Source: Sphingomonas morindae
GTDB taxonomy: Bacteria; Pseudomonadota; Alphaproteobacteria; Sphingomonadales; Sphingomonadaceae
Reading direction: 5' to 3'
DNA length: 64,000 nt
NCBI RefSeq assembly: GCF_023822065.1
Contig: NZ_CP084931.1
Span: forward strand, 434,001-498,000
The notes under the pieces are model-generated. The model did no database searches. It saw only the letters and a program-made list of their open reading frames with translations, and was not told where the DNA came from. Shown in pieces: positions 49,685-63,316 of the stretch. The translations under genes and the position numbers were made by a program. Each line of letters begins with the position of its first letter. Position 1 is the stretch's first letter.

Positions 49685-52543
49685 TCAAATTCGCGCCCGG
49701 ACGCCGAAGAAGAAGGCGCGGCCCGTATATTCGTAGAAAGCCGGCACATTCTTGTAGGTGGAATAGCGTCGAATCGCTTGGTCGAGAAGATTCGAGCCCT
49801 GCGCATAGATGGTGAGCTGCGGCAGGATGTCGTAGGAAATACTCGCGGCCAGCTCGTGATAGGGATCCTGCTTGATCGCCAGGGTATCGATATAGCTATA
49901 TTGCGACGAGGTGAACTTGCCCTGATATTGGTAGGATACCGAGGCATTGATGCCGTGCTTCTCGTAGAAGATCTTGGCATTGGCCGAGAAGGGCACGGCA
50001 TCCTGCAGCGCGGTGGTGGGCCGCCCCTCGCGCTTGGCGCGGCTGTGGTTGAAGGTGGCGTTGGCCTGGATGCCGAGGCCGTTATCCAGAAAATATTGGC
50101 CGCCCGCCTCGACACCATAGACCTTGGCGCTGTCGCCATTGACATAGGTGAGTTCGGTGAAGGGGAAGCTCGCCGGGGCGCCGGCCACCTGGTCGGTCGG
50201 CACCAGCGTGAAGGGCACCGCGCGCGTCGTGACGAAGTTGGTGAGATGCTTGTAGAAGCCCGCCAGGGTCAGGGCGAGGCGCGTAGTCGGGTAATATTCG
50301 AGCGAAATGTCCGCCTGGTCGGCCGAGACGGGCTTGAGATTGGGGTTGCCCGCATCGGTGACGACCGGCGTGTTGGACTGGGCGGCCGAATAATCCTTGG
50401 CCGAGGAGAGCTGGCCAAAGGTGGGACGGGACAGCGCCTTGGACGCCGCCAGCCGCACCCGCAGGCCATCCGCCAGATCATAGGAGAAATTGGCGGAGGG
50501 GAGGAAGCGCTTGTAGTCGCCGCCGCCGGTGATCGGCGCGATCGGGTTGAACACGACATTGGCGGTGCCGACGCCGATCACCTGATAGCTGCGCACCGTC
50601 GCGCCATAGCCGAGCGAGCCGACCGAGGTGTTGACGTAGCGCACGCCGATATCGCCCTTCCACCGGCTGCCGCCGAAATTGAACTGGGCATAGGCGTTCC
50701 AGGTCCGCTCGCGGATCGCGTAAGAGGCGAGCAGATCGGGCACCACCTGCTGCGCGGCATAGCCGGTGGGATAGGGCGCGCCAGTATTGGGGTTGAGCAC
50801 GTTCGGATTATTCTCGGCCGCCGAGAGCGAGGCGAGATAGGTGTTGATATCGAAGGTGGGGATGGCGCGCGGGAAATTGCCCGAGAGGCGCGGCAGGATG
50901 TTGTCGTACACCGGCGACTGCACGACATTGGCGCCGATCTGCCCGAAGGAGAAGGGATAGCCGGCGAAATTCTCGGCCGTCGTATATTGGTTGTCGATCA
51001 CGTCGACATCCTTGCGGCGGTGCGTGAAGGCGCCGCCGAAGCTGATCGAGCGCAGCGGCCCGAGATCGGCATCGTATTTCAGATCCAGCTTGGCGCCGCG
51101 CGTCTTGTCCGAGATGTTCTGGCCTTGGATGCCGATATAATGGGCGCGCAGATCATCATTGCCGGCCTGGTCGAGCCCGCGATCGGTGACGGTGCCATCG
51201 GCATTGGGGATGGTGATGGAGAGATCCGGCAGACCGCCGTCGCGCGTTGCCACCACCGCGCGCGAGCCCGGAATGCCCGCCACCACGAAGCGGTTCTGGC
51301 CGCCGGTATCGTTCACGGCGCGGCCGAAATAGGCATCGGCCGAGACTTTGAGCCGCGACGCGGGCGTCCAGTCGATATGGCCGCCCAGCTGATAGGTGAT
51401 CGAGTTGCGCGGCTCGTCGGTAGCGAGAATGTCCACCGTGGCGGGCTGCACCGCGTAATTGGTGACGACCTTGTTCTGATCGACCTGGATATTGTTCAGA
51501 TCCCAGCGCACACTGCCATCATCGGCCAGCGGCGTGAGCCCCACCGAGACGCGGTGGTTGTGCTCGGTGTCGGTATAGTTGCTGTAGATGCCGTCGAGCC
51601 GGAACTCGAAATTGCTGGACGGCTTCCACTGATAGGCGGCCGATCCGCCCCAGCGTGTGCGCTCGCCCACGACATAGCCGACGCTGTAGAAATAGGGCAC
51701 GATCACGCCGCCGCTCGGCCTCGAGACGATCGACCGCGACCCATCGGCGGCGGTGGCGATGTCGAAAGTGTCGGTGCTCGAATATTCGCCGAGATTGTCG
51801 GTGCGGAACTTGTAGCGGTTATAGGTGCCCGACACGAGGAAACCCATCGTATCGTTGGCGAAGGTGGTGCTGACCACGCCCGAGACCTTGATCCCGCCCT
51901 TCTCCGCGAACTGGTTATACTGGCCCTCGACCGCGCCGGCGGCGTGGAAGCCCTTGTGATCGAAGGGCCGCGCCGTGCGCAGATCGATATTGCCGCCGAT
52001 GCTGCCTTCCAGCTGCGAGGCCTGCGCCGCCTTCTGGATCTCGGCGCCCGAAATCACTTCGGAGGGCAGCACGTCGAAGGCGAAGGCGCGGTCCGGGCCG
52101 TCGGTGGGGAGGATGCGGCCGTTGAGCGTGGTGAGCGCGAAATCCTCGCCCAGGCCGCGCACGGTGACGCTGCGCCCCTCGCCGCGCCCGTCGCGGCCCA
52201 CGGTCACGCCCGGGATGTTGGCGAGCGCCTCGGCGACGTTGCGATTGGGAAACTTGCCGAGTTCCTCGGCCGAGATGGCATCGACGATGGTGGTCGCATC
52301 GCGCTTGGTGTCGATCGAGCGCAGCAGGCTGCCGCGCACGCCGCGCACCACGATGGCGCCCTGATCGCCGCTGATCTCCGCCGGATCGCCGCTCTGGCCC
52401 GGACCGGACTGGACCGGCGTGCCGGGATTGGGCTGGTCGGTGGGCGATACGGCGGTCTGCGCCCCCGCGGCGCCGCCGGCCGCAAGCGCCGCGAGGCTGA
52501 TCCCCGCCCAAGCCGCCTGCCGAAACCGATTCAATCCGAGCAT
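49685..52543 (-). CDS. TonB-dependent receptor of the galactoside cluster (TonB-Xanth-Caul type)
   Basis: A 952-aa outer-membrane receptor of the large Xanthomonas/Caulobacter subgroup. Signal peptide 1-28 (WAGISLAALAAGGAAGA); plug begins GAIVVRGVRGSLLRSIDTKRD and continues ELGKFPNRNVAEALANIPGV, VRGLGEDFALTTLNGR and EVISGAEIQKAAQASQLEGSIGG, all hallmark strings of this group. Barrel ends FFFGVRARI. It is divergent from the GH27 gene, sharing a 324-base promoter region with TTTCGTTT-type repeats that recur in the cluster, so it most likely imports the glycan handled by these enzymes. Start ATG 52543. Confidence 0.93.
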   Translation of the reverse strand: MLGLNRFRQAAWAGISLAALAAGGAAGAQTAVSPTDQPNPGTPVQSGPGQSGDPAEISGDQGAIVVRGVRGSLLRSIDTKRDATTIVDAISAEELGKFPNRNVAEALANIPGVTVGRDGRGEGRSVTVRGLGEDFALTTLNGRILPTDGPDRAFAFDVLPSEVISGAEIQKAAQASQLEGSIGGNIDLRTARPFDHKGFHAAGAVEGQYNQFAEKGGIKVSGVVSTTFANDTMGFLVSGTYNRYKFRTDNLGEYSSTDTFDIATAADGSRSIVSRPSGGVIVPYFYSVGYVVGERTRWGGSAAYQWKPSSNFEFRLDGIYSNYTDTEHNHRVSVGLTPLADDGSVRWDLNNIQVDQNKVVTNYAVQPATVDILATDEPRNSITYQLGGHIDWTPASRLKVSADAYFGRAVNDTGGQNRFVVAGIPGSRAVVATRDGGLPDLSITIPNADGTVTDRGLDQAGNDDLRAHYIGIQGQNISDKTRGAKLDLKYDADLGPLRSISFGGAFTHRRKDVDVIDNQYTTAENFAGYPFSFGQIGANVVQSPVYDNILPRLSGNFPRAIPTFDINTYLASLSAAENNPNVLNPNTGAPYPTGYAAQQVVPDLLASYAIRERTWNAYAQFNFGGSRWKGDIGVRYVNTSVGSLGYGATVRSYQVIGVGTANVVFNPIAPITGGGDYKRFLPSANFSYDLADGLRVRLAASKALSRPTFGQLSSAKDYSAAQSNTPVVTDAGNPNLKPVSADQADISLEYYPTTRLALTLAGFYKHLTNFVTTRAVPFTLVPTDQVAGAPASFPFTELTYVNGDSAKVYGVEAGGQYFLDNGLGIQANATFNHSRAKREGRPTTALQDAVPFSANAKIFYEKHGINASVSYQYQGKFTSSQYSYIDTLAIKQDPYHELAASISYDILPQLTIYAQGSNLLDQAIRRYSTYKNVPAFYEYTGRAFFFGVRARI

Positions 52544-52643
52544 CGCCCGCCTCCCTTGTTGCCGAATCTTAGGTCGTGACGCGATCTGCGCGCGCTTTAT
52601 TGCGCTTTGCTAACTTTAGCGTCACGCCATTGTCAAACGTTTA

Positions 52644-52658
52644 GAAACGAAAGTTTCG
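52644..52658. promoter_or_regulatory. GAAACGAAA / CGAAAGTTTCG repeat in the TBDR-GH27 divergent region
   Basis: GAAACGAAA (52644-52652) overlaps the palindrome CGAAA-G-TTTCG (52648-52658), about 100 bases upstream of the TBDR start. The same short word occurs at other promoters of the cluster. Candidate site for the DeoR-family regulator encoded at 54805-55578. Confidence 0.5.
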
Positions 52659-52783
52659 CGGACGCTGCAAAATCTTGTCACACGGGCCGCACCGTGGCCT
52701 TTGCGCCACGCAGAAGCCTCGGCGCGCGTCGAAAAAACAGAGCGTCGCGGCACGCCGCTGGGGCAGGACGGAGACAGCCGGCA

Positions 52784-52794
52784 AGTTTCGTTTT
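52784..52794 (+). promoter_or_regulatory. AGTTTCGTTTT site upstream of GH27
   Basis: The 11-mer AGTTTCGTTTT lies 73 bases before the GH27 start and is identical to 59871-59881 upstream of agaZ, in the same orientation relative to the gene. In very GC-rich DNA such a T-rich word is rare, which favours a shared operator. Candidate DeoR-family (AgaR-like) site. Confidence 0.5.
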
Positions 52795-52867
52795 CCTTCT
52801 ACCTCGGTTGACGCGCCCGCCGGGATGCGCGACGCTGCCGCCCTTTCCGCCGGTGCAGGAGCCCGTC

Positions 52868-54700
52868 ATGCCGATCCGATCCGCCCTCCTCGCCGGCCTT
52901 GCCCTCGCGGCGGCGCTCGCCGCGCCCGCGCGCGCCGCACCGGATCCGCTCGCGCCGACCGGCCGGATCGACGCGCCGCCCGCCGCGGCCTCCCCCACGC
53001 CGCCCATGGGCTGGAACCCGTGGAACGCCTTCCGCACCGATGTCGACGAGGCGAAGATCCGCAGCTCGGCCGAGGCGCTGGTGCGCACCGGCCTTGCCGC
53101 CAAGGGCTATCGCTTCGTCAATATCGACGATGGCTGGGTGTTGCGGCGGCTGGCCGATGGCCGGCTGCAAATCCGCACCAGCATGTTCCCCTCCGCTGCC
53201 ACCGCGCCCGCCGCCACCGGCAGCTTCCGCCCCTTTGTCGGCTATATTCACCGGCTCGGGCTCAAGGCCGGCCTCTATACCGATATCGGGCGCAACACCT
53301 GCGCGCAGCGCTGGGACAATAACAAGAGCCCCAATCATCCGATCGGCAGCGTCGCCGAGCGCGAGGTCGGCAGCTATGGCCATGCCGCGGCGGACATGCG
53401 CACCATCTTCGCCGATTGGGGCTTCGACTATATCAAGATCGATGCCTGCGGCGTCGCCGATTACGGCGCCGATTCTCCCGTGGTGCGCGACGGCAGCTAT
53501 CGCGCCTTTCCGCCGCTGATCCGGCGCGGCGACGTGCCCGGCTCCGATCCGGCCGAGGTGGAGCGCCTCTATGCCGATCTGGGCGCGGCGATCCGCCGCT
53601 GGGGCGGCCCGAACGCGGTCTATTCCATCTGCGACTGGGGCGAGGCGGATGCCGCCGCCTGGGCGCCCAGGCACGGCAATCTGTGGCGCACCAGCCCCGA
53701 TATCGAGTTCAGCTGGGCCAGCATGCTCGCCAATATGGACAGCGCGCTGGATGGCGCGCTCTATGCCGGACCGGGCCATTGGAACGATCCCGACATGCTC
53801 GCGATCGGCCATGCGCCGTTCGATGCCGCGCATCTCACCGAGGCGCGCGCGCATTTCACCATGTGGGCGATCATGGCCGCGCCGCTGCTGCTGGGCTTCG
53901 ATCTGCGCCATGCCCCGCCGGCGCTGCTCGATCTGGTGGGCAATGCCGAGGTGATCGCGGTGGATCAGGATGCCGCCGGCAACCAGGGCGTGCCCTATCG
54001 CAGCGGCGCCACGCTGGCGGTGGTGAAAAGGCTCGCCGCGCCGGGCGCGCGCGCGGTGGCGCTGCTCAACCGATCGGACCGGCCGGCGCTGGCGCGGGTC
54101 GATTGGCGCCAGCTCGGCCTCGCGCCCGGCAGCACGGCGCGGGTGCGCGATCTCTGGGCGCGGCGCGATCGGACGCCGGCGCGCGACGCCATCGCGCTCC
54201 GCCTGCCGCCGCACGGCGCGGCGCTACTGCGCGTAACCGGACGACCGGCGCCGGGATCGGACGCCTATCTCGATGCCATGCCCGCGCGCGTCACCGTGGC
54301 GGCGGACGGGCTGAGCCGGCAGACCGCGCTGCCGCTGGGCCGCTTCGCCGCGCGGATCGGGATGACGCCGGACGACGCGCCGCTTCCCCCCGGCCCCGAC
54401 GGCGCCGCCCATGGCATCGGCCTGTTCGCCAATTCGCGGCTCGCGCTCCGCGCCGAGGGCGGGTTCGGGCGCTTCGTCGCCACGCCGCTGGTGCGACCGG
54501 GCGGTGGTGCCGTTACCTTTCGCATCTATGCCGATCGCCGGCTGGTGGCCGAGCGCCGCATCGCTCCCGGTGCGCCCGCGCCCGCGCTTGAGGCGGCGAT
54601 CGGCGGCGCCAAGGTGGTCGAGCTGGTCGCGGCGGCGGATGCGCCGGGCGATGGCCGGCCGCCGATGGTCGGCTGGGTCGGCGCGCGGCTGCTGCGCTGA
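52868..54700 (+). CDS. Secreted GH27 alpha-galactosidase / alpha-N-acetylgalactosaminidase with C-terminal NPCBM-like domain
   Basis: A 610-aa retaining alpha-glycosidase. Signal peptide 1-23 (LALAAALAAPARA). The GH27 barrel shows PPMGWNPWNAF, the substrate-binding DDGW (87-90), the nucleophile D192 in YIKIDACG, and the acid/base D278 in RTSPDIEFSW. At the position that is Glu in alpha-galactosidases (CEW) and Ser in alpha-N-acetylgalactosaminidases (CSW), this protein has Asp (CDW, about 255-257), so specificity is not clear. The last 150 residues resemble an NPCBM galactose-binding domain. ATG 52868 follows CAGGAGC. Divergent from the cluster's TBDR. Confidence 0.9.
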   Translation: MPIRSALLAGLALAAALAAPARAAPDPLAPTGRIDAPPAAASPTPPMGWNPWNAFRTDVDEAKIRSSAEALVRTGLAAKGYRFVNIDDGWVLRRLADGRLQIRTSMFPSAATAPAATGSFRPFVGYIHRLGLKAGLYTDIGRNTCAQRWDNNKSPNHPIGSVAEREVGSYGHAAADMRTIFADWGFDYIKIDACGVADYGADSPVVRDGSYRAFPPLIRRGDVPGSDPAEVERLYADLGAAIRRWGGPNAVYSICDWGEADAAAWAPRHGNLWRTSPDIEFSWASMLANMDSALDGALYAGPGHWNDPDMLAIGHAPFDAAHLTEARAHFTMWAIMAAPLLLGFDLRHAPPALLDLVGNAEVIAVDQDAAGNQGVPYRSGATLAVVKRLAAPGARAVALLNRSDRPALARVDWRQLGLAPGSTARVRDLWARRDRTPARDAIALRLPPHGAALLRVTGRPAPGSDAYLDAMPARVTVAADGLSRQTALPLGRFAARIGMTPDDAPLPPGPDGAAHGIGLFANSRLALRAEGGFGRFVATPLVRPGGGAVTFRIYADRRLVAERRIAPGAPAPALEAAIGGAKVVELVAAADAPGDGRPPMVGWVGARLLR

Positions 54701-54756
54701 TCCGGCGCGCGCGACGAGGGAAAGATATCGAAATATCGGCGCGATTGAAGCGCCGA

Positions 54757-54780
54757 CGGCGGGCTGATATCAGCCCGCCG
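54757..54780. promoter_or_regulatory. Perfect 24-bp palindrome before the DeoR-family gene
   Basis: CGGCGGGCTGAT followed directly by its exact reverse complement ATCAGCCCGCCG, ending 24 bases before the regulator's start and 57 bases after the GH27 stop. It may be an autoregulatory operator, or a GC-rich terminator hairpin of the GH27 transcript; no T-run follows. The adjoining sequence also has GATATCGAAATATCGG (54725-54739 region), a further dyad. Confidence 0.6.
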
Positions 54781-54804
54781 GTTGATCCGGGGAAAGATGG
54801 CCGC

Positions 54805-55578
54805 ATGGCGCGCGATACCAGTGAGAGGCGGCAGCAGATCAGTTCGCTGGTGCGCGAGCGCGGGAGCGTGCAGGTCGCGCCGCTCGCCCAGCGCTTCGGC
54901 GTCTCGATGCAGACCATCCGAAAGGATCTGCGCTTCCTCGCGCTGCGCGGCGTGATGGAGCGCTCCTATGGCGGGGCGATCAGCGCGGACGCGGTGAATG
55001 TCACCACCGAGCTTGCGGTCGAAACCAAACGCTCCAGCCATGCCGACGAAAAGGCGCGCATCGGCCGGCGCGCCGCCGCCATGGTGCGGCCCGGCGAGTC
55101 GGTGGTGCTCGATTCCGGCACCACCACGCTGCAGATCGCGCGCTTCCTGCCCGATGACGAGGACATCACCGTCCTCACCAACGATATCGACATCCTCTCG
55201 GTGCTCGCCGCCAAGGAGCGGCTGACGATCGTGATGCTGGGCGGGATGCTGCGCCGGAAGAACCGCGCCTTCTACGGCGCCCAGACGGTGGCCGCGCTCG
55301 ACGATCTGCGCGTCGACAAGCTGTTCCTGGGCGTCGACGGCTTCGATATCGAGCGGGGCATCACCACCCATTTCGAGCCCGAGGCGATGCTCAACCGGAA
55401 GATGGTGGAAGCCGCCAGCCAGGTGATCGCGGTGACCGACGGCTCCAAATTCGGCCGCGTCTGCCTGCACCGCATCATCGATATCGAGGATATCCACGAT
55501 CTGGTGACGGACGGCACCGTGCCGGCGGATATCGGCGCGGCGGCGGGGCGGCTGGGCTTCCGCATCCACGCCGCCTAA
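54805..55578 (+). CDS. DeoR-family sugar-phosphate-responsive repressor (AgaR-like)
   Basis: A 257-aa regulator with the normal DeoR architecture: winged helix at about 7-60 (RRQQISSLVRERGSVQVAPLA, QRFGVSMQTIRKDLRFLALRG) and a DeoRC effector domain starting VVLDSGTTTLQIARFL and containing FLGVDGFDIERGITT, the phosphosugar-sensing part. ATG 54805 gives the family length and follows GGGGAAAG; an in-frame ATG 60 bases earlier would include the palindrome. Members of this family repress sugar-utilisation genes and are released by pathway phosphosugars; here galactosamine- or tagatose-6-phosphate is the natural candidate (inference from agaZ/agaS). Likely recognises the TTTCGTTT repeats in the cluster. 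Confidence 0.9.
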   Translation: MARDTSERRQQISSLVRERGSVQVAPLAQRFGVSMQTIRKDLRFLALRGVMERSYGGAISADAVNVTTELAVETKRSSHADEKARIGRRAAAMVRPGESVVLDSGTTTLQIARFLPDDEDITVLTNDIDILSVLAAKERLTIVMLGGMLRRKNRAFYGAQTVAALDDLRVDKLFLGVDGFDIERGITTHFEPEAMLNRKMVEAASQVIAVTDGSKFGRVCLHRIIDIEDIHDLVTDGTVPADIGAAAGRLGFRIHAA

Positions 55579-55590
55579 CCGCCGCCCGCC

Positions 55591-56697
55591 TCACCCGCCG
55601 AGGTGGAAGAAGCGGCGGGCGTTCCGATAATAGATCTTGTCGATCACCGGCCGGGGCAGCGCGAGCCCCGGCGCATCGGCGCGGATCGCGCCGACATGCT
55701 GGCTGAGCGGCGTCGCCAGGTAGCGCCAGTCGGACCGCCAGGTGCGATCCGCCTCGCCCGCGAAATCGTTCGTGGCGGGCGGGTTCTGCGCACGGGCATG
55801 CGGATCGGGCGGGCTGTCGGTGAGGTCGGTGCCGTACATCAGCCGGTCCTGATAGCGCAGGAAGAAGGCGCGCACCTTGGCGCGGTTCGCGTTGGACTGG
55901 ACCTGCACCTGCGTCATGCGCGCGGCGAGATCGACCACGGCATTGGGATAGCGATCGAGAAAGCGCGCGAGTTCGTCGACGCTCCATTCCAGGCTCGCCA
56001 TATGCGCGCCGTCGAACGCCAATTTGGGATGCCGGGCGACGAAGCGATCGCGCGCCGCCATCAGCTGCTCGTAGCGCGGCTCATTCGGGTGCTTGTACAT
56101 GTAATATTCGGGGTGATCGCGAAAATAGGTGCGGTCATTGTCGGTCGTCATCTGGTCGAGCGGCAGCCAGCAATTTTTCGGCTCGCCCTGGTGCGCGATC
56201 AGCGGCACGCCGCGCTGCTGCAGATGCGCCATGATCGGATCGAAGCGCGGATCGTCGAGGAACACGCGCTTGCCCGCCGTGTCGCGCGCGATCATGCCGA
56301 TATTCTTCCACACTTTCACTGCCACCGCGCCATGGGCGAGGCCGGCATCGACCTGGCGCTCGGCGCGCGCGGTCCAATCGGGCGCGCCGAAGCCGTGCAT
56401 CGAGAAGGTGGTGGCGAAGTGGAAGCGGTTCGGCGCCGCCGCGTGCATCTTATAGGCGATCGCCGCCTGCACCGGCAGCGGCGGGAAATCGGGATAGTCG
56501 ACATTGATCGACAGCAGCTCGAAGCCGTCCTTGGTGGCGATGCGGAGGAAATCGGGCGCGTCGCGATTGGCGTGCACATGCGCGTCGAGCTTGGGCACGC
56601 GCGTGAAATCGGCCTCGGAATAGCCGGGCGGCGCGGCGCGCGCGCCGATCAGCAGCGTCGCCAGCGTCAGCGGCAGCAAGGTCCGGATCGCACGCAT
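55591..56697 (-). CDS. Secreted metal-dependent amidohydrolase (PF04909 type)
   Basis: A 368-aa TIM-barrel hydrolase of the amidohydrolase_2 group, exported by a signal peptide at 1-21 (TLLPLTLATLLIGARA). Metal-binding HVH at 40-42 (KLDAHVHAN), a strand-5 histidine in PLIAHQGEP, and a catalytic aspartate in YGTDLTD are visible. It is not the NagA/AgaA deacetylase family by motif, so a role in removing N-acetyl groups would be speculative; lactonase or decarboxylase activity is equally possible. Convergent with the DeoR gene (12 bases apart), and its 5' region holds GAAACGTAACGAAAC, placing it under the same presumed regulator. ATG 56697 follows GGAGAGA. Confidence 0.8.
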   Translation of the reverse strand: MRAIRTLLPLTLATLLIGARAAPPGYSEADFTRVPKLDAHVHANRDAPDFLRIATKDGFELLSINVDYPDFPPLPVQAAIAYKMHAAAPNRFHFATTFSMHGFGAPDWTARAERQVDAGLAHGAVAVKVWKNIGMIARDTAGKRVFLDDPRFDPIMAHLQQRGVPLIAHQGEPKNCWLPLDQMTTDNDRTYFRDHPEYYMYKHPNEPRYEQLMAARDRFVARHPKLAFDGAHMASLEWSVDELARFLDRYPNAVVDLAARMTQVQVQSNANRAKVRAFFLRYQDRLMYGTDLTDSPPDPHARAQNPPATNDFAGEADRTWRSDWRYLATPLSQHVGAIRADAPGLALPRPVIDKIYYRNARRFFHLGG

Positions 56698-56711
56698 ATC
56701 TCTCTCCAACA

Positions 56712-56753
56712 GAAACGTAACGAAACTCAGTCTATGTTGCGTTTTGGTTTGCG
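56712..56753. promoter_or_regulatory. GAAAC / TTGCGTTTTGG repeats between amidohydrolase and GH36-like genes
   Basis: GAAACGTAACGAAAC at 56712-56726 (two GAAAC half-sites, spaced 10 bases apart) and TTGCGTTTTGGTTTGCG at 56737-56753 lie in a divergent promoter of 134 bases. They share the TTTCGTT/CGTTTT words with the sites at 52644, 52784 and 59871, as expected for operators of one regulator. Confidence 0.45.
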
Positions 56754-56831
56754 CAAGCCCGAAGCTTGGTGCACATCCGCAGCAAGGCCGGCGATCCACT
56801 GCACCGGCATCTGTCCTGGAGAGGCATGTTC

Positions 56832-58928
56832 ATGGCCCATCCCCTGCTTTCGCGGCGCGCTACCCTGGCCGGCCTGCTGGGCGGCACCGCCGCGCTCACC
56901 CTCGCATCCCCCGTGCGCGCCGGCGCGACCAGCGTCGGCGACAGGCTCCGCCTAGGCGATGCGCGGCTCACGATCGAGATCGACTCGGGGCTCGCCACGC
57001 GGCTGAGCCGCGGTACCGTGCCGCTCACCCACTTCGCCCCGAGCGAGGTTGTGCGCCTGGCGGACGGCCGCGCGGTGGATCGCTTCCTCCGCACCGCGCA
57101 CAGCGAGGCGCCGGTCGATGGTCCGCACGGCCCGGGGCGCGCGCATCAGCTGGAAGGCGCGGGCGCGGCCGGCCTAGTCAAGCAGATCCGCATCACCTTT
57201 CTCGATCGCTATCCCGGGCTCGCCCTGCTCGACATCCGCTATCGCAATGGCGGCACGGCGCCGCTCGAGATCACCGGCTGGAGCGCGGCGCGCCACACGC
57301 TGCTGCCGCACGCGCGCGGCGCCTGGAGCTTCGCCGGCGCCTCCTATCCCGATCGGCGGGACTGGATCCAGCCCGTCACCCCAGGCTTCGGCCAGCGCAA
57401 CTTCATGGGCATGAATGCATCCGATTATGGCGGCGGCACGCCGGTGGCGGTGGTGTGGCGGCCCGATGCGGGGCTGGCGGTCGGCCATATCGATCGCGTG
57501 CCCCGGCTGGTGGCGCTGCCGGTGGCGGCGCAGCCCGATGGCACGCGCATCGCCATCGACGGCGACGAGCCCGTGCTGCTGGCGCCGGGCGCCACGCTGG
57601 ACCTGCCCCCGCTCTTCCTGATGGTGCATGAGGGCGATCATTTCCGGCCGCTCGACGCCTATCGCCGCCTCATGGCCGAGCGCGGGCTCGCCGCGCCGGC
57701 GGTTCCCGAGCCGAGCTACGCGCCGATCTGGTGCGCCTGGGGCTATGGCCGCCGCTTCACCCTGCCCGAAATCTTCACCGCCATGCCCAAGGCCAAGGCG
57801 ATCGGGCTGGAATGGGTGGTGCTGGACGATGGCTGGCAGACATCGGAGGGCGACTGGAAGCTCAACCGGACCAAGTTCCCGCGCGGCGACGCCGATATGA
57901 AGGCGTTCGCGGATCGGGTGAAGGCGGCCGGCATGCGGCCGCGGCTCTGGCTGGCGCCGCTCGCCGCCGATCCCGGCACCGATCTGCTGCGCGACCATCC
58001 CGACATGCTGCTGCTGGACCGCGATGGCGCGGCGCAGAATGTCAGCTTCTGGGATGCCTTCACCCTGTGCCCCGCCTATCCGCCCGTGGTCGACTATTTC
58101 CGCGGGCAGGTGCGCCGCATCCTGGGCGATTGGGGCTATGCCGGGCTCAAGCTGGACGGCCAGCATCTCAACGGTGTCGCGCCCTGCCACAATCCCGCGC
58201 ACAACCACCAGCGGCCCGAGGAGAGCTTCGAGAAGCTGCAGGATTTCTGGCGCGCGCTGTACGAGGAGGCGATGGCCGTCAATCCCGAGGCGGTGATGGA
58301 AATCTGCCCCTGCGGCGACAGCTTCGCCTTTCACAATATCGCCGGGATGAACCACACGCCCGCCTCGGACCCCACCTCCTCCTGGCAGATCCGGCTGAAG
58401 GGCAAGAGCTTCAAGGCGATGATGGGGCGTTCGGCACCGTTTGCGGGCGATCATGTGGAGCTGAGCGACGGCCATCGCGATTTCGCCTCGAGCTATGGCA
58501 TCGGCGCGGTGCTCTCGACCAAATTCACCTGGCCGGACGATCCGGTCGACACCACCGATCCGCTGCCCCCCGGCGGCATCCGGCTTACCGCCGAGAAGGA
58601 GGCCGAGTGGCGCCGCTGGATCGGCCTCTATCGGCGCAATATGCTGCCCAAGGGCGAGTATCTGGGCGAACTCTACGATATCGGCTTTGATCGCCCCGAA
58701 GGCCATGCGATCCGCGCCGGCGGCCGGATGCATTACGCCTTCTATGCCGACCGCTTCGCCGGTACGCTGCCGCTGCGCGGCCTGCCGTCCGGCGCCTGGC
58801 GGCTGACGAACAGCCTGACCGGCGCGCCTCTGGGCACGGTGCAGGGGCCGGACGCGACGCTGGCGGCGCGCTTCGAGCATGCGCTGATGATCGAGGCCAG
58901 CCCGCTCGCGCCGGGGGCCTCGGCATGA
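56832..58928 (+). CDS. Tat-exported GH36-like alpha-galactosidase
   Basis: A 698-aa glycosidase of clan GH-D. A twin-arginine signal (LSRRATLAGLLGGTAALTL, about 6-24) suggests folded export. An N-terminal beta-sandwich (about 30-280) precedes the barrel with CAWGYGRRFTLPEI, the DDGW at 332-335, nucleophile D442 in GLKLDGQ, and acid/base D513 in ASDPTSSW. ATG 56832 is chosen because the ribosome site GGAGAGG is at proper distance; an ATG two codons earlier is too close. Family GH36 includes both alpha-galactosidases and alpha-N-acetylgalactosaminidases, so it may act together with the GH27 enzyme. Stop overlaps the transporter start by 4 bases. Confidence 0.88.
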   Translation: MAHPLLSRRATLAGLLGGTAALTLASPVRAGATSVGDRLRLGDARLTIEIDSGLATRLSRGTVPLTHFAPSEVVRLADGRAVDRFLRTAHSEAPVDGPHGPGRAHQLEGAGAAGLVKQIRITFLDRYPGLALLDIRYRNGGTAPLEITGWSAARHTLLPHARGAWSFAGASYPDRRDWIQPVTPGFGQRNFMGMNASDYGGGTPVAVVWRPDAGLAVGHIDRVPRLVALPVAAQPDGTRIAIDGDEPVLLAPGATLDLPPLFLMVHEGDHFRPLDAYRRLMAERGLAAPAVPEPSYAPIWCAWGYGRRFTLPEIFTAMPKAKAIGLEWVVLDDGWQTSEGDWKLNRTKFPRGDADMKAFADRVKAAGMRPRLWLAPLAADPGTDLLRDHPDMLLLDRDGAAQNVSFWDAFTLCPAYPPVVDYFRGQVRRILGDWGYAGLKLDGQHLNGVAPCHNPAHNHQRPEESFEKLQDFWRALYEEAMAVNPEAVMEICPCGDSFAFHNIAGMNHTPASDPTSSWQIRLKGKSFKAMMGRSAPFAGDHVELSDGHRDFASSYGIGAVLSTKFTWPDDPVDTTDPLPPGGIRLTAEKEAEWRRWIGLYRRNMLPKGEYLGELYDIGFDRPEGHAIRAGGRMHYAFYADRFAGTLPLRGLPSGAWRLTNSLTGAPLGTVQGPDATLAARFEHALMIEASPLAPGASA

Positions 58929-59872
58929 GCGCGGCGCCGCAGGCCGGCGGCCGCGCCTGGCTGTTCAACGCGCTCGCCACCGTCGTGCTCTGGGGCATAT
59001 GGGGCGCCTTTTCGGGCCTCTCGGCCGGGCAGGGCTTTCCCGAGACCCTGGTCTATTGCGTCTGGGCGCTGACCATGATCCCGCCGGCGCTGGTGATGCT
59101 GGCGCAGCGCGGCTGGGCCTTGGATCGCGGCGGCGCGGCGATCGCGCAGGGGCTGGCGGTGGGTCTGCTGGGCGCGGGTGGGCAGATGCTGCTCTTCTAC
59201 GCGGTGACGCGCGGGCCGCCCTATCTCATCTTCCCCGTGATCTCGCTCTCGCCCGTCGTCACCATCGCCCTGTCCTTCCTGCTGATCGGCGAGCGGACCG
59301 GGCGGCTGGGCGCGTTCGGCATCCTGCTCGCGCTGCTGGCGTTGCCGACCTTCGATTTCGCCCCCGGCGGCGGCGGCCATGGCGGCGCCTGGCTGGGGCT
59401 GGCGCTGCTGGTGATGGCCTGTTGGGGGCTCCAGGCCTTTTTCATGAAATCGGCCAACCGCATCATGTCGGCCGAAAGCATCTTCTTCTACATGATGCTG
59501 AGCGGCCTCGCGCTGATCCCGGTGGCGCTGGCGATGACCGATTTCCACCGCCCCATCCCGCTCGGGCTGCGTGGCCCGGGCTTGGCGGCGGCGATCCAGA
59601 TCCTCAACGCGATCGGCGCGCTCACGCTCGTCTTCGCCTTTCGCTATGGCAAGGCGATCATCGTCGCGCCGCTCGCCAATGCCGGCGCGCCGCTCGCCAC
59701 CGCGCTCATCTCGCTGGTCGCGCTGGGGGTGATGCCGGGGCCGGTCAAGGCGATCGGCATCGGCCTCGCGCTGGCCGCGTCGCTGCTGCTGGCGATCGAA
59801 CCCGACGGACAGGACGCCGACGCCGCGCCCGCGCCCGCGCCCGCGGACGAAAGCACCTCGCTCGCAGCGTAG
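58925..59872 (+). CDS. DMT/EamA-family permease, candidate inner-membrane sugar transporter
   Basis: A 315-aa protein with about ten hydrophobic helices in two EamA-like halves (WGIWGAFSGL near the start; LVFAFRYGKAIIVAPLANAGAPL in the second half). The C-terminus ends in a Pro/Ala tail. The ATG overlaps the GH36 stop (ATGA), so it is translated in step with the glycosidase. No MFS or ABC sugar permease is present in the cluster, so this is the best candidate for moving the freed sugar into the cytoplasm, although substrates of EamA proteins vary widely. Confidence 0.82.
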   Translation: MSAAPQAGGRAWLFNALATVVLWGIWGAFSGLSAGQGFPETLVYCVWALTMIPPALVMLAQRGWALDRGGAAIAQGLAVGLLGAGGQMLLFYAVTRGPPYLIFPVISLSPVVTIALSFLLIGERTGRLGAFGILLALLALPTFDFAPGGGGHGGAWLGLALLVMACWGLQAFFMKSANRIMSAESIFFYMMLSGLALIPVALAMTDFHRPIPLGLRGPGLAAAIQILNAIGALTLVFAFRYGKAIIVAPLANAGAPLATALISLVALGVMPGPVKAIGIGLALAASLLLAIEPDGQDADAAPAPAPADESTSLAA

Positions 59873-59894
59873 TTTCGTTTTGCTTCGGTTCGTT
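59871..59894 (+). promoter_or_regulatory. AGTTTCGTTTTGCTTCGGTTCGTT repeat upstream of agaZ
   Basis: Opens with the same 11-mer as 52784-52794, followed by two looser copies, TTCGGTTCGTT. It overlaps the last two bases of the transporter gene and lies about 50 bases before the agaZ start, so agaZ-agaS-kinase may have their own regulated promoter. Three tandem TTCG-T-T words look like a multi-site DeoR-family operator. Confidence 0.5.
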
Positions 59895-59941
59895 GCGGCT
59901 GTACAAGGCGCCTGCTAGGACCGTCCAAAGAGGACCGTAAA

Positions 59942-61225
59942 GTGCATCTGATTCGAACCCTTATCGAGCGCCACAAGCGCGGCGAGCGCGTCGGCGTCCC
60001 ATCGATCTGCTCGGCGCATCCGCTGGTGATCGAGGCCGGCTTCCGCCACGCGCTGCGCACCGGCGCGCCGCTCGTGCTGATCGAGGCGACGTCCAACCAG
60101 GTGAACCAGGATGGCGGCTATACCGGCATGGTGCCGGCCGCCTTCCGGACCTTTGTCGAGACGATCGCGCGGGCGGCGGGCTTTCCGCTCGACCGGCTGG
60201 TGCTGGGCGGCGATCATCTCGGCCCCAATGCCTGGACCGCGCTGCCCGCCGAGGCTGCCATGGCCAAAGCCGAGATTTTGGTGGCCGACTATGTTCGCGC
60301 CGGCTTCGCCAAAATCCATCTCGATTGCTCGATGAGCTGCGCCGACGATCCGGTGCCGCTGCCCGAGCGGGTGATCGCCGAGCGCGCCGCGCGCCTCTGC
60401 CGCGCCGCCGAACAGGCCTTTGACGGCGACGCCGAAGCCGCGCCCGTCTATGTCATCGGCACCGAGGTGCCCGTGCCCGGCGGCGCCGCCGAGGATCTCG
60501 ACACGCTCGCCGTGACGAGCCCCGAAGCCGCGCTGGCGACGCTGGAGATGCACCGCACGCTCTTCGCCGAACAGGGGCTCGGCGACGCCTGGACGCGGGT
60601 GATCGCCACCGTGGTGCAGCCGGGGGTCGAATTCGATCACATGAAGGTGGTGGATTATCGGCCGGCGGCGGCGGCGGCGCTCAGCGCCGCGATCGCGCCC
60701 GTCGAGCGGATCGTCTACGAGGCGCATTCCACCGATTACCAGTCCCCCGCCGCGCTGGCGGCGCTGGTGCGCGATCATTTCGCCATCCTCAAGGTCGGGC
60801 CCGGCGTCACCTTCGCGCTGCGCGAGGCGCTCTGGGCGCTGGACCGGATCGAGGCGGAAACCATCGCCGCGCCGGATCGCGCAGGGCTGCGCCAGGTCGC
60901 GCTTGCCCGCATGATGGAGGCGCCGGAGCATTGGCGGCGCTATTATCACGAGCGCGGCGCCGCGCTGGAACTCCAGCTCCAATATAGCCTCAGCGACCGC
61001 ATCCGCTATTATTGGCCGGATCCCGCGATCGCCGCCGCGCAGGCGCGGCTGTTCGACAATCTGCGCGCGCATCCGCCCGCCCTGCCGCTGCTCAGCCAAT
61101 ATCTGCCGATCGCCTACGCCGCCGTCCGCGCCGGCGAGGCCACGCGCGATCCCGTCGATCTCGTCGTCGCCCATATCGGAGCGACGCTCGATGCCTATCA
61201 TGGAGCCTGCACCGCCAATGTCTGA
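59942..61225 (+). CDS. agaZ: GatZ/KbaZ-family protein (AgaZ): tagatose-bisphosphate aldolase subunit or tagatose-6-P 4-epimerase
   Basis: A 427-aa TIM-barrel protein of the GatZ/KbaZ family. Clear family strings: GVPSICSAHPLVIEA, LIEATSNQVNQDGGYTGM, GGDHLGPNAW, IHLDCSMSCADDP and HSTDYQ. Members are annotated as the non-catalytic aldolase subunit, but a homologue in Agrobacterium was reported to be a D-tagatose-6-phosphate 4-epimerase. Here neither the catalytic KbaY/GatY subunit nor a tagatose-6-phosphate kinase is visible, which favours the epimerase role (inference). Starts at GTG 59942. Overlaps agaS by 8 bases, so the two act in sequence: AgaS makes tagatose-6-phosphate, this enzyme uses it. 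Confidence 0.9.
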   Translation: MHLIRTLIERHKRGERVGVPSICSAHPLVIEAGFRHALRTGAPLVLIEATSNQVNQDGGYTGMVPAAFRTFVETIARAAGFPLDRLVLGGDHLGPNAWTALPAEAAMAKAEILVADYVRAGFAKIHLDCSMSCADDPVPLPERVIAERAARLCRAAEQAFDGDAEAAPVYVIGTEVPVPGGAAEDLDTLAVTSPEAALATLEMHRTLFAEQGLGDAWTRVIATVVQPGVEFDHMKVVDYRPAAAAALSAAIAPVERIVYEAHSTDYQSPAALAALVRDHFAILKVGPGVTFALREALWALDRIEAETIAAPDRAGLRQVALARMMEAPEHWRRYYHERGAALELQLQYSLSDRIRYYWPDPAIAAAQARLFDNLRAHPPALPLLSQYLPIAYAAVRAGEATRDPVDLVVAHIGATLDAYHGACTANV

Positions 61226-62375
61226 CACGCTCACCGCGCCCGCCCCGGCGGCCGCCGCCCCGGACGAGAGCTGGACCCGCCGCGAGATCTTCCAACAGCC
61301 CGATACGCTGCGCGCCACCCAGGCGCTGCTCGCGCGGGATCGCGCCGAGATCGAAGCCTTTGTCGCGCCGCTGCTGGCGCGGCCCGATCTGCGCATCCTG
61401 CTGTGCGGCGCCGGCACCTCGGCCTTTATCGGCACCTGCCTCGCGCCCTGGCTGTCGGCGCGGCTCGGCCGCTGCGTCGAGGCGGTGGCGACCACCGACA
61501 TCGTCTCCGCGCCCGGCCTGTATCTCGATCCGGCGCGGCCCACGCTGATGCTGTCCTTCGGCCGGTCGGGGAGCAGCCCCGAAAGCGTGACGGCGGTCGA
61601 GCTGGCGGACCGGCACCTGCCCAGCGTCCACCACCTCGTCATCACCTGCAACGCCGAGGGCGCGCTGGCGCGGCGGGCGGGCAGTCGCTGCCATGTCGTG
61701 GTGCTGCCCGAGGCGACGCACGACCGCGCCTTCGCCATGACCTCGAGCTTCAGCGCCATGACGCTCGCGGCCCTGTCGATCCTCGGCGGGATCGCGGCGA
61801 TGGACGCGCGGATCGAGGCGATCGCGGGCGCCGTGGCGGCGACGCTCGCCGCGGCCGAGCCCGTGGCGGAGGCGCTGGCGGCCCGGCGGTTCGATCGCGT
61901 GGTCTATCTCGGCAGCGGTGTCTTCCAGGGGCTGGCGCGCGAGGCCGCGCTCAAACTGCTGGAGCTGACCGACGGCGCCATCCCGACCGCGTTCGATTCG
62001 GCGCTCGGCTTCCGCCATGGGCCGAAGACGATCGTCACCGATCGCACGCTGATCTGCGTGTTCGTCTCCAGCGATCCGCTGACCCGCCTCTATGATCTCG
62101 ACATGCTCGCGGAGCTGCGCGGTGATGGCCGCTCGGGCGCGGTGCTGGCGGTGACGGCCGAAGGCGAGGCGCACGACGCGCCCGGGGAGACTCTGGTCGT
62201 GCCGGGCGGCGCGGCGCTCGACGATGCCGGGCTGCTCTTCCCCTATATCGTCCCCGCCCAGCTCTTCGCCCTCGCCTGTTCGCGGCGCGCGGGGCTGACC
62301 CCGGACCAGCCCAATGCCAGCGGCACCGTCAACCGCGTGGTGCAGGGCGTGCGCATCCACATGCCGGCGGCGTGA
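61218..62375 (+). CDS. agaS: SIS-domain galactosamine-6-phosphate deaminase/isomerase
   Basis: A 385-aa cytosolic enzyme of the AgaS family, converting galactosamine-6-phosphate to tagatose-6-phosphate plus ammonia. Two SIS domains: the first with CGAGTSAFIG (63-72) and SFGRSGSSPES (113-123), the second with YLGSGVFQGLAREAALKLLELTDG and the FRHGPKTIV active-site loop. ATG 61218 is taken over in-frame ATGs at 61191 and 61200 because it gives the family length and keeps the 8-base overlap with agaZ. The stop overlaps a GTG of the kinase gene. Confidence 0.92.
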   Translation: MSDTLTAPAPAAAAPDESWTRREIFQQPDTLRATQALLARDRAEIEAFVAPLLARPDLRILLCGAGTSAFIGTCLAPWLSARLGRCVEAVATTDIVSAPGLYLDPARPTLMLSFGRSGSSPESVTAVELADRHLPSVHHLVITCNAEGALARRAGSRCHVVVLPEATHDRAFAMTSSFSAMTLAALSILGGIAAMDARIEAIAGAVAATLAAAEPVAEALAARRFDRVVYLGSGVFQGLAREAALKLLELTDGAIPTAFDSALGFRHGPKTIVTDRTLICVFVSSDPLTRLYDLDMLAELRGDGRSGAVLAVTAEGEAHDAPGETLVVPGGAALDDAGLLFPYIVPAQLFALACSRRAGLTPDQPNASGTVNRVVQGVRIHMPAA

Positions 62376-62377
62376 GC

Positions 62378-63316
62378 ATGTTTCTCGGCGTCGATGGCGG
62401 CGGCACCAAGACCGCCTTTGTCTGCATGGACGAGGGCGGCGCGGTGCTGGCGCGCGCCGTGACCGGCACCAGCTATCATCTCCAGATCGGGCTGGACGAG
62501 GCGGTGGCGCGGCTCAAGACGGGCGTGGAGGCGATCTGCGCGCAGCTCGGCCGCTCGGCGGATGCGTTCGACTTCGCCTTTTTCGGCCTCCCCGCCTATG
62601 GCGAGGATGCGGTGATCGATCCCCTTCTGGCGGCCGCGTGCGGCCAGCTGCTCGGCCATGACCGGTATCGCTGCGACAATGACATGGTCTGCGGCTGGGC
62701 CGGCTCGCTGGCGTGCGGCGACGGGCTCAACCTCGTCGCCGGCACCGGCTCGATCGGCTATGGCCAGCGCCGGGGCCGCGCCGCGCGCGTCGGCGGATGG
62801 GGCGAGCTGTTCGGCGACGAGGGCTCGGCCTATTGGATCGCGGTCCAGGGGCTCAACGCGGTCTCGCGCATGAGCGACGGACGGTTGCGGCCGGGCCCGC
62901 TCCGCCGCGTGGTGCACGAGGCGCTGGGCGTCGAGGCCGATCTCGATCTGTGCGCGCGGGTGATGGGCCCCTCCGGCCTGGGACGCGACGGCATCGCCGC
63001 GCTCGCGCCGCTGGTCAGCCAGGCGGCGGCGGCGGGCGACAGCGTCGCCGGCGCCATCCTCGCCGATGCGGGCGCGGAACTCGCCCGGATCGCGCATGCG
63101 CTGCGGCACGCGCTCGGCTTCCCGGACTCGGAGCCGGCGCCGATCTCCTGGTCGGGCGGCGTGCTGGCGCACCAGCCGGCGGTCCGCGAGGCGTTGACCG
63201 CCGCGCTCGCGCGCGACGGCCGCTACCGCGTCACCCCGCCGCGCCACGGCGCCGATATCGGCGCCGCCCTCTATGCCGCGCATCTCGCCGGCCGGGTGAT
63301 CGCCGTGGCGGACTAG
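62378..63316 (+). CDS. BadF/BcrA-type amino-sugar kinase
   Basis: A 312-aa ASKHA-fold kinase like N-acetylglucosamine kinases. Phosphate-1 motif GVDGGGTKTAF (4-14), base-binding catalytic region DNDMVCGWAG (about 95), and AGTGSIGYGQ (about 118) are all intact; C-terminal SWSGGVLAHQPAVREAL. ATG 62378 (MFLGVDGGG) is the usual start, though a GTG six bases earlier overlaps the agaS stop. In this operon it is expected to phosphorylate galactosamine or N-acetylgalactosamine to give the substrate of AgaS (or of a deacetylase elsewhere). Its end overlaps the next gene, on the other strand, by four bases. Confidence 0.88.
   Translation: MFLGVDGGGTKTAFVCMDEGGAVLARAVTGTSYHLQIGLDEAVARLKTGVEAICAQLGRSADAFDFAFFGLPAYGEDAVIDPLLAAACGQLLGHDRYRCDNDMVCGWAGSLACGDGLNLVAGTGSIGYGQRRGRAARVGGWGELFGDEGSAYWIAVQGLNAVSRMSDGRLRPGPLRRVVHEALGVEADLDLCARVMGPSGLGRDGIAALAPLVSQAAAAGDSVAGAILADAGAELARIAHALRHALGFPDSEPAPISWSGGVLAHQPAVREALTAALARDGRYRVTPPRHGADIGAALYAAHLAGRVIAVAD

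Follow-up and report, generated by a model that had tools for sequence, protein, structure and literature searches.

The window analysed here, a 64,000-nucleotide stretch of Sphingomonas morindae (contig NZ_CP084931.1, positions 434,001 to 498,000), contains between its positions 49685 and 63316 a set of nine genes that appears to serve the catabolism of galactosamine-containing glycans (Table 1). The genome measures 4.24 Mb and is 99.96% complete, and the window belongs to its contig 2. The nearest named relatives that carry the locus are Sphingomonas; S. echinoides and S. oligoaromativorans are among the locus-bearing species. The genes encode a TonB-dependent receptor (TBDR), a GH27 glycosidase, an AgaR-type repressor, a PF04909 amidohydrolase (AMH2), a GH36-like glycosidase (GH36L), an EamA permease, AgaZ, AgaS and a BadF-type kinase. 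A preliminary description, made from the DNA letters alone, had placed these nine genes together; all of the open reading frames and their families were verified by reading-frame and profile checks at the positions listed. The coupling by overlaps that it had noted was also found: GH36L and EamA overlap by 4 nucleotides, AgaS and BadF by 4, and AgaZ and AgaS by 8 to 35, depending on the start chosen. This tight, overlapping spacing suggests co-transcription from GH36L or AgaZ through BadF, while AMH2 and TBDR are transcribed in the opposite direction.

Table 1. Genes and putative operator words of the locus (positions are those of the window; GalNAc, N-acetylgalactosamine; P, phosphate)
Feature	Position	Strand	Supporting match or remark
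TonB-dependent receptor (TBDR), outer-membrane uptake	49685..52543	-	TIGR01782 580.7 bits; Plug and barrel domains
TTTCGTTT word, putative AgaR operator, TBDR/GH27 region	52645..52652	-
TTTCGTTT word, putative AgaR operator, GH27	52786..52793	+
Secreted GH27 glycosidase, C-terminal NPCBM	52868..54700	+	PF16499 132.6 bits; Melibiase_C; PF08305 27.4
AgaR-type DeoR repressor	54805..55578	+	NF040755 AgaR 285.7 bits, cut-off 260
AMH2, PF04909 amidohydrolase, leader secretory by eye; proposed GalNAc de-N-acetylase	55591..56697	-	PF04909 55.4 bits
TTTCGTTA word, divergent AMH2/GH36L promoter	56718..56725	-	Flanking sequence conserved among relatives
GH36L, Tat-like leader by eye; proposed FpGalNase-type exo-alpha-galactosaminidase	56832..58928	+	phmmer vs PDB, 9awt E=4.4e-71
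EamA/DMT permease, proposed galactosamine importer	58925..59872	+	PF00892 75.3 bits
TTTCGTTT word 5' of agaZ	59873..59880	+
AgaZ/GatZ-type protein, proposed stand-alone tagatose-6-P 4-epimerase	59942..61225	+	TIGR02810 618.9 bits, cut-off 568.8
AgaS, galactosamine-6-P deaminase/isomerase	61218..62375 (alternative start 61191)	+	TIGR02815 465 bits; PDB 3c3j 331.6
BadF/NAGK-type sugar kinase, proposed galactosamine (or GalNAc) 6-kinase	62372..63316	+	PF01869 159.4 bits

The DeoR-type regulator exceeds the NCBI equivalog cut-off for AgaR, which points toward galactosamine or GalNAc as the sugar concerned. Its operator may be the word TTTCGTTW, which occurs five times in the window against 0.21 expected (0 of 100 shuffles reach five), four of these in intergenic DNA of the locus, in agreement with the shared promoter words of the preliminary description. 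The TTTCGTT/AACGAAA sites of 18 sphingomonad loci number 72; 59 of them lie just upstream of locus genes, in regions that make up 18,396 of 380,118 bases (4.8%), a density 89 times that elsewhere. Such a site precedes AMH2 in all 17 loci that have this gene and TBDR in 15 of 17; for AgaZ the figure is only 12 of 18, and none was found before EamA in the 18 loci. The sequence of the divergent AMH2/GH36L promoter is kept in relatives. Lengthening the pattern to TTKCGTTTYG, one mismatch allowed, gave a weak result: 13 matches against 5.36 expected, with 2 of 100 shuffles reaching 13.

Among 249 genomes of the family, AgaS is found in eight, and GH36L and AMH2 (at least 55% identity) in exactly the same eight; one other genome has an AMH2-like match at 30% identity only. 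Scanning 84,980 species genomes for AgaS, with a reach limited to close relatives, yielded 51 loci, and AMH2 is linked to EamA, AgaZ, AgaS and BadF in 36 of them. AgaR, AgaS, AgaZ, BadF and EamA are matched in all 36 AMH2-bearing loci, and GH36L also lies in the flank examined in 32. For the remainder, GH36L is located immediately beyond the flank edge in L063, is absent nearby in L044 with two copies elsewhere in the genome, and was not found at E<=1e-20 in the genomes of L045 and L052, each of which has two GH27-like genes. The conserved module comprises TBDR, AgaR, AMH2, GH36L, EamA, AgaZ, AgaS and BadF; GH27 is optional, with a match of at least 100 bits in 12 of the 51 AgaS loci. The module recurs in a different order in Burkholderiales and in one genome (G624) of a third family. 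Sphingomonads and Burkholderiales arrange these genes differently, so the set is kept together and not simply inherited as a block.

An AMH2 profile run against 398 genomes of the phylum gave six matches, four of them strong (at least 541 bits) and all four within AgaS loci. Three belong to the organism's own family and were known before (G000, G155, G040); G624 is new. In this genome, found via AMH2 alone, BadF-AgaS-AgaZ and TBDR-EamA-AMH2-GH36L-thioredoxin-AgaR run in diverging directions. The leaders of its AMH2 and GH36L proteins resemble those of lipoproteins by eye. Plasmid records contain only four AMH2 matches, at 26–32% identity. AMH2-like proteins of L115 and L116 (31–33%) were not counted as AMH2, both lacking the HQGEPKNCW motif. 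The L116 gene adjoins what by eye seem to be glycerol genes, without AgaS. The variant cluster in L115 (4718-10803) encodes a PfkB kinase, an AgaS-like protein, a LacD/DeoC aldolase, the PF04909 protein and AgaR, has no NagA match, and pairs its PF04909 gene with a different lower pathway.

In the standard pathway, deacetylation takes place at GalNAc-6-P (PMC12118421). No NagA/AgaA homologue lies near AgaS (flanks up to 10 kb) in any of the 36 loci with AMH2, whereas one is present in six (L048, L066, L067, L068, L070, L072) of seven compared loci without AMH2 (Fisher p 1.1e-6, uncorrected for kinship); AMH2 therefore occupies the place expected for AgaA. The query was the NagA of the present genome at E<=1e-4, with which a very distant deacetylase could be missed. 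The seven loci compared were L048, L065-L068, L070 and L072; L041, L069, L071 and L073-L077 were left out because their AMH2 status was unclear, the locus was truncated (L069 stops close to a contig end) or AgaS was weak, and these eight have no NagA match either. Pfam confirms PF01979 in L048, L067 and L072; L048 also encodes a phosphotransferase system (PTS) and a PF01116 protein, and L067 and L072 a ROK kinase.

The score of AMH2 for Amidohydro_2 (PF04909) lies well above the gathering cut-off of 26.4 bits. PF04909 is its only Pfam match at E<=0.001; the NagA/AgaA models (PF01979, TIGR00221) do not match, and no NCBIfam model does. Residues H41, H43, K129, H170, H233 and D292 are invariant across 42 aligned sequences, and this HxH, Lys, His, His, Asp combination is a set seen in metal amidohydrolases. 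The AlphaFold2 model has an amidohydrolase fold (predicted local distance difference test 84.1, predicted template modelling score 0.84) and locates Lys129 at the end of strand 4, for which reason it may be a carboxylated metal bridge. By the look of its leader AMH2 is probably secreted. From the genomic replacement of AgaA, the metal-ligand residues and the needs of GH36L described below, we infer that AMH2 removes the N-acetyl group from GalNAc before cytoplasmic uptake.

GH36L has only a weak Pfam Melibiase match (55.7 bits). In a phmmer search of the PDB, its top three rows score 241.5–243.5 bits and the next GH36 enzyme at most 55.1. Two of the three are labelled galactosaminidase (FpGalNase of Flavonifractor plautii); the third, 8x1b, is labelled alpha-galactosidase but aligns as the same protein. 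The match to FpGalNase (9awt) spans residues 32-692. FpGalNase acts with a separate deacetylase and needs a de-N-acetylated substrate, and its residues D463, Y464, C513 and D532 have been mutated (PMC11762096). Counted by hand on the printed alignment, D463, C513 and D532 correspond to GH36L D444, C496 and D515, and W317, D346, D347 and K461 to W305, D334, D335 and K442, all invariant in 26 sequences; W387 could be placed only approximately (W375). GH36L hence shows the full-length homology and the catalytic and specificity residues of the FpGalNase type (PMC11762096), Y464 and W387 aside. We take it for an exo-alpha-galactosaminidase, probably exported, whose fine specificity may differ from that of FpGalNase because the resemblance is distant.

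The closest solved relative of the window's GH27 protein is 1uas, and its best PDB matches are alpha-galactosidases, as would suit a locus for plant alpha-galactosides (raffinose, melibiose or galactomannan) in which the amino-sugar genes are bystanders. Such a locus is very improbable: GH27 is optional while AgaR, AgaS, AgaZ and BadF are matched in every one of the 36 AMH2-bearing loci, GH36L falls with FpGalNase, and the genome has a canonical GH36 match (398 bits) elsewhere, on contig 1 (L009), with another, weak Melibiase match ~4.7 kb away. On the last two grounds the plain alpha-galactoside reading, one of the two that the preliminary description had named, was rejected. The Glu of the 1uas CEW motif is Asp in the window's GH27 and Ala in seven of the eight relatives' proteins in which the motif was found (17 rows). 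We take this position to be the C2-substituent pocket site of NAGA-type GH27; other GH27 enzymes (3a21, 1szn) also lack the Glu, and an assignment of specificity from it was dropped since they vary there too. In Pseudoduganella lurida a protein with DUF4832 and DUF4874 (L106:5279-6694) lies between GH36L and GH27, possibly another enzyme for the same glycan; apart from L103, which covers the same place, it has no match in the other loci compared.

For the lower pathway, AgaZ passes its NCBIfam cut-off and matches 2fiq (432.8 bits) and the S. meliloti protein 3txv (429.5 bits) in the PDB. GatZ has been described as a tagatose-6-P/fructose-6-P C4-epimerase with active-site Cys, Glu, His, Glu, His and Lys (PMC11907403), and all six are present in matching motifs of AgaZ (C23, E48, H92, E175, H262, K284). 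No PF01116 class II aldolase was found in the S. morindae genome by a search whose control gave a match in 11 of 14 genomes, so AgaZ probably acts alone as a tagatose-6-P 4-epimerase. With the GatZ residues in place, the conversion of galactosamine-6-P to tagatose-6-P by AgaS and on to fructose-6-P by AgaZ could be completed without kinase or aldolase. Counted over 42 locus-bearing genomes (eight genomes and 34 of the 51 AgaS loci), PF01116 was not found in 21 of 24 from sphingomonads, whereas each of the 18 Burkholderiales genomes encodes one or more such proteins, probably the housekeeping enzyme. A role for AgaZ as aldolase subunit, as in the KbaYZ/GatYZ complex, was rejected for the present genome, where the PF01116 partner is absent. 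The role of tagatose-6-P kinase, proposed for Shewanella AgaZ (PMC12118421), is weakened, since an aldolase would have to come next, and the search of this genome covered those of class II. The claim of the preliminary description that key steps are missing is not supported for this lower side. By its PDB match BadF resembles a kinase for N-acetylmuramic acid and N-acetylglucosamine (GlcNAc) (8zo3, 82.2 bits); galactosamine is the proposed substrate of EamA, and galactosamine or GalNAc that of BadF.

A protein of ~520 residues that has a Tat-type leader but matches no enzyme domain of Pfam is encoded in five sphingomonad loci from four genomes (L025:13413-14975, L023, L024, L041, L042; L025 and L042 are one contig), directly after BadF in L025/L042 and L041 and two genes further on in L023.

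Together these observations suggest a system, under AgaR control and fed through TonB, for glycans that contain alpha-linked galactosamine or GalNAc, for example galactosaminogalactan (GAG) or Pel. TBDR would import oligosaccharides, AMH2 would de-N-acetylate GalNAc, terminal or free, in the periplasm, GH36L would release galactosamine outside the cytoplasm, and GH27 would remove other alpha-galactosyl-type residues. Galactosamine would then be taken up by EamA and converted by BadF to galactosamine-6-P, from which AgaS would form tagatose-6-P and ammonia; epimerisation to fructose-6-P by AgaZ would follow, without tagatose bisphosphate or an aldolase. We put the probability of this extracytoplasmic route as a whole at roughly 0.55. 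The larger proposal, that AMH2 founds a new PF04909 de-N-acetylase family and that the locus is a complete "deacetylate first" galactosaminoglycan pathway bypassing GalNAc-6-P deacetylase, tagatose-6-P kinase and aldolase, is more tentative, with odds somewhat short of even. The general interpretation in the preliminary description survives to this extent: amino-sugar (galactosamine) catabolism tied to outer-membrane uptake and two clan-D glycosidases is supported.

Several observations weigh against the proposed route. AMH2 has no credible PDB relative by sequence at E<=1, where its two matches look like chance, and to our knowledge no PF04909 member is a known sugar deacetylase; none was found in the literature searched, which under-covers subscription journals. 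L065 lacks AMH2 and also an AgaA homologue, and in the Stakelama locus L041 AMH2 is absent from the locus and ~19 kb adjoining while GH36L, EamA and BadF are kept. The co-occurrence counts are non-independent, being drawn from linked genes in related genomes. GH36L has Gly at the position of FpGalNase Y464, and AgaS falls under its NCBIfam cut-off (529.2 bits), so that it is AgaS-like by homology to 3c3j and not a member by the NCBI rule. Finally, nagA was found in 39 of the 42 locus-bearing genomes, and E. coli NagA is able to replace AgaA (PMC3668189).

With nagA elsewhere in the genome, the classical GalNAc-6-P route is the chief alternative: GH27 and GH36L would free GalNAc, which would pass EamA and BadF to a NagA encoded outside the locus and then to AgaS and AgaZ, with AMH2 acting in another role, for instance on another substituent. 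The only NCBIfam match of BadF, to N-acetylglucosamine kinase (92.7 bits, below the cut-off of 370), would fit such a course. The preliminary description had found no GalNAc-6-P deacetylase, which is accurate where the locus is concerned but does not extend to the whole genome; the search for nagA/agaA that it had proposed finds nagA (280 bits) on another contig. There the gene has a NagB-II-like gene on one side and, on the other, PTS genes to which it is tied; one of these exceeds the cut-off for the GlcNAc-specific IIBC. At E<=1e-10 nagA was not found in three of the 42 genomes, which nevertheless keep the locus (G164, G083 and G138; completeness 100, 100 and 92%). GH36L, moreover, resembles an enzyme for de-N-acetylated galactosamine, and AMH2 is conserved alongside the sugar pathway in three lineages. 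We regard this main rival to early deacetylation by AMH2 as weakened and, on balance, unlikely. Of the three options left by the preliminary description (free galactosamine as substrate, a deacetylase elsewhere, or a secreted amidohydrolase acting earlier on the glycan), comparative evidence favours the last, although a deacetylase elsewhere is also present in the form of nagA.

A further alternative is a substrate that has lost its N-acetyl groups beforehand (polygalactosamine or a partly deacetylated GAG or Pel), from which galactosamine would enter directly, leaving AMH2 to act on a lactone, ester or carboxylate. GH114 enzymes cleave GAG-type polymers (PMC12054363), and PF03537 was searched for in the genomes of 36 of the 51 loci (20 Burkholderiales and 16 sphingomonads). 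Strong matches were obtained in eight, all Burkholderiales (8 of 20), with best scores per genome of 294.8–311.8 bits; a ninth genome has two weak ones (41.1 and 36.6 bits). In all eight a GH114 gene is part of the locus or borders it: its place is between AMH2 and TBDR in L050, L055, L057, L059 and L061 and just past GH36L in L060, L062 and L064; the copy in L061 (G279) is the lesser of two, at 296.8 bits. A 41-residue GH114-like fragment between two TBDR genes (L063:4266-4388, E=2e-7) is possibly the relic of a lost GH114 gene. Such company, the FpGalNase likeness of GH36L and the nearest solved folds of the AMH2 model all suit a deacetylated substrate; these folds are PF04909-type decarboxylases, followed by allantoinase and dihydroorotase, with query TM-scores of ~0.5 or less, and they count at the same time against AMH2 as a deacetylase. 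A ready-deacetylated substrate would, however, leave the mutual exclusion of AMH2 and locus-borne AgaA unexplained, and the six invariant residues of metal-ligand type, the strand-4 lysine included, suit a hydrolase. We consider it less likely again than the NagA route.

The distribution of GH114 also counts against the proposed route in sphingomonads. PF03537 was found neither in the present genome nor in any of the 16 named locus-bearing sphingomonads; five of the 249 family genomes have it, none of them among the eight with AgaS. GH114 was accordingly rejected as the endo-enzyme of sphingomonads. The polymer may be GAG or Pel; GAG also contains galactose, which would give GH27 a role, whereas Pel does not.

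Next to the locus lies a gene for a 2701-residue, repeat-rich protein, autotransporter-like as judged by eye (41415-49520, minus strand), whose repeats probably account for a long antisense frame at 43674-48194. Past the window on the same contig (L008:7930-14999), genes that by eye resemble those of a GH92-type glycosidase, a permease of the major facilitator type and a further TonB receptor perhaps form a second glycan locus.

The aga operon of E. coli and Serratia shares AgaR, an AgaZ-type protein and AgaS with the present locus. It has PTS uptake, a PF01979 AgaA acting on GalNAc-6-P and a PF01116 KbaY (families checked in Serratia, L048); none of these occurs here, where EamA, BadF and AMH2 stand instead. 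A Shewanella Aga pathway with AgaK, AgaAII, AgaS, AgaZ and AgaY was reportedly described by Leyn in 2012. The likeness to it extends to the outer-membrane receptor, a permease and kinase in place of the PTS, AgaS and AgaZ. However, in Shewanella the deacetylation of GalNAc-6-P is cytoplasmic, and a role as tagatose-6-P kinase has been proposed for AgaZ (PMC12118421), while AgaA is missing from the present locus and a class II aldolase from the genome. The A-antigen pathway of Flavonifractor plautii resembles the proposed one in the homology of GH36L to FpGalNase and in the order, deacetylation followed by galactosamine cleavage. Its deacetylase FpGalNAcDeAc, the structure of which has been solved (PMC11762096), is not a homologue of AMH2 by sequence, and the present locus adds candidates for uptake, kinase, deaminase and epimerase.

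AgaZ shares its six active-site residues with the C4-epimerases GatZ of Agrobacterium/Sinorhizobium and GatZ/KbaZ of E. coli (PMC11907403), here without a class II aldolase partner; their known use is galactitol and tagatose, whereas AgaZ would close a galactosamine route. OngB, a deacetylase of GlcNAc1A (PMC12017989), likewise belongs to the amidohydrolase superfamily and acts on a non-phosphorylated acetamido sugar derivative, but resembles D-aminoacylase (subtype V) and has a small beta-domain, while AMH2 matches PF04909 only. For the GH114 degradation of GAG and Pel (PMC12054363), the link is the gene in or beside the homologous locus of the eight Burkholderiales. A bacterial catabolic locus for GAG or Pel, or of the present type, did not appear in the literature searched. 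We regard the locus as a new variation on a known pathway, in which AMH2 is a candidate, open to assay, for a new family of carbohydrate deacetylases.

Galactosamine-rich polymers such as GAG and Pel form fungal and bacterial biofilm matrices, and bacterial feeding on them is little described. If the proposed route is correct, S. morindae and its relatives would possess a gene set for a diet of galactosamine polymers, together with a candidate new deacetylase family and environmental relatives of an enzyme pair studied for blood-group conversion. AgaZ/KbaZ, long called an aldolase subunit or a kinase, would then be seen to function without a class II aldolase partner.

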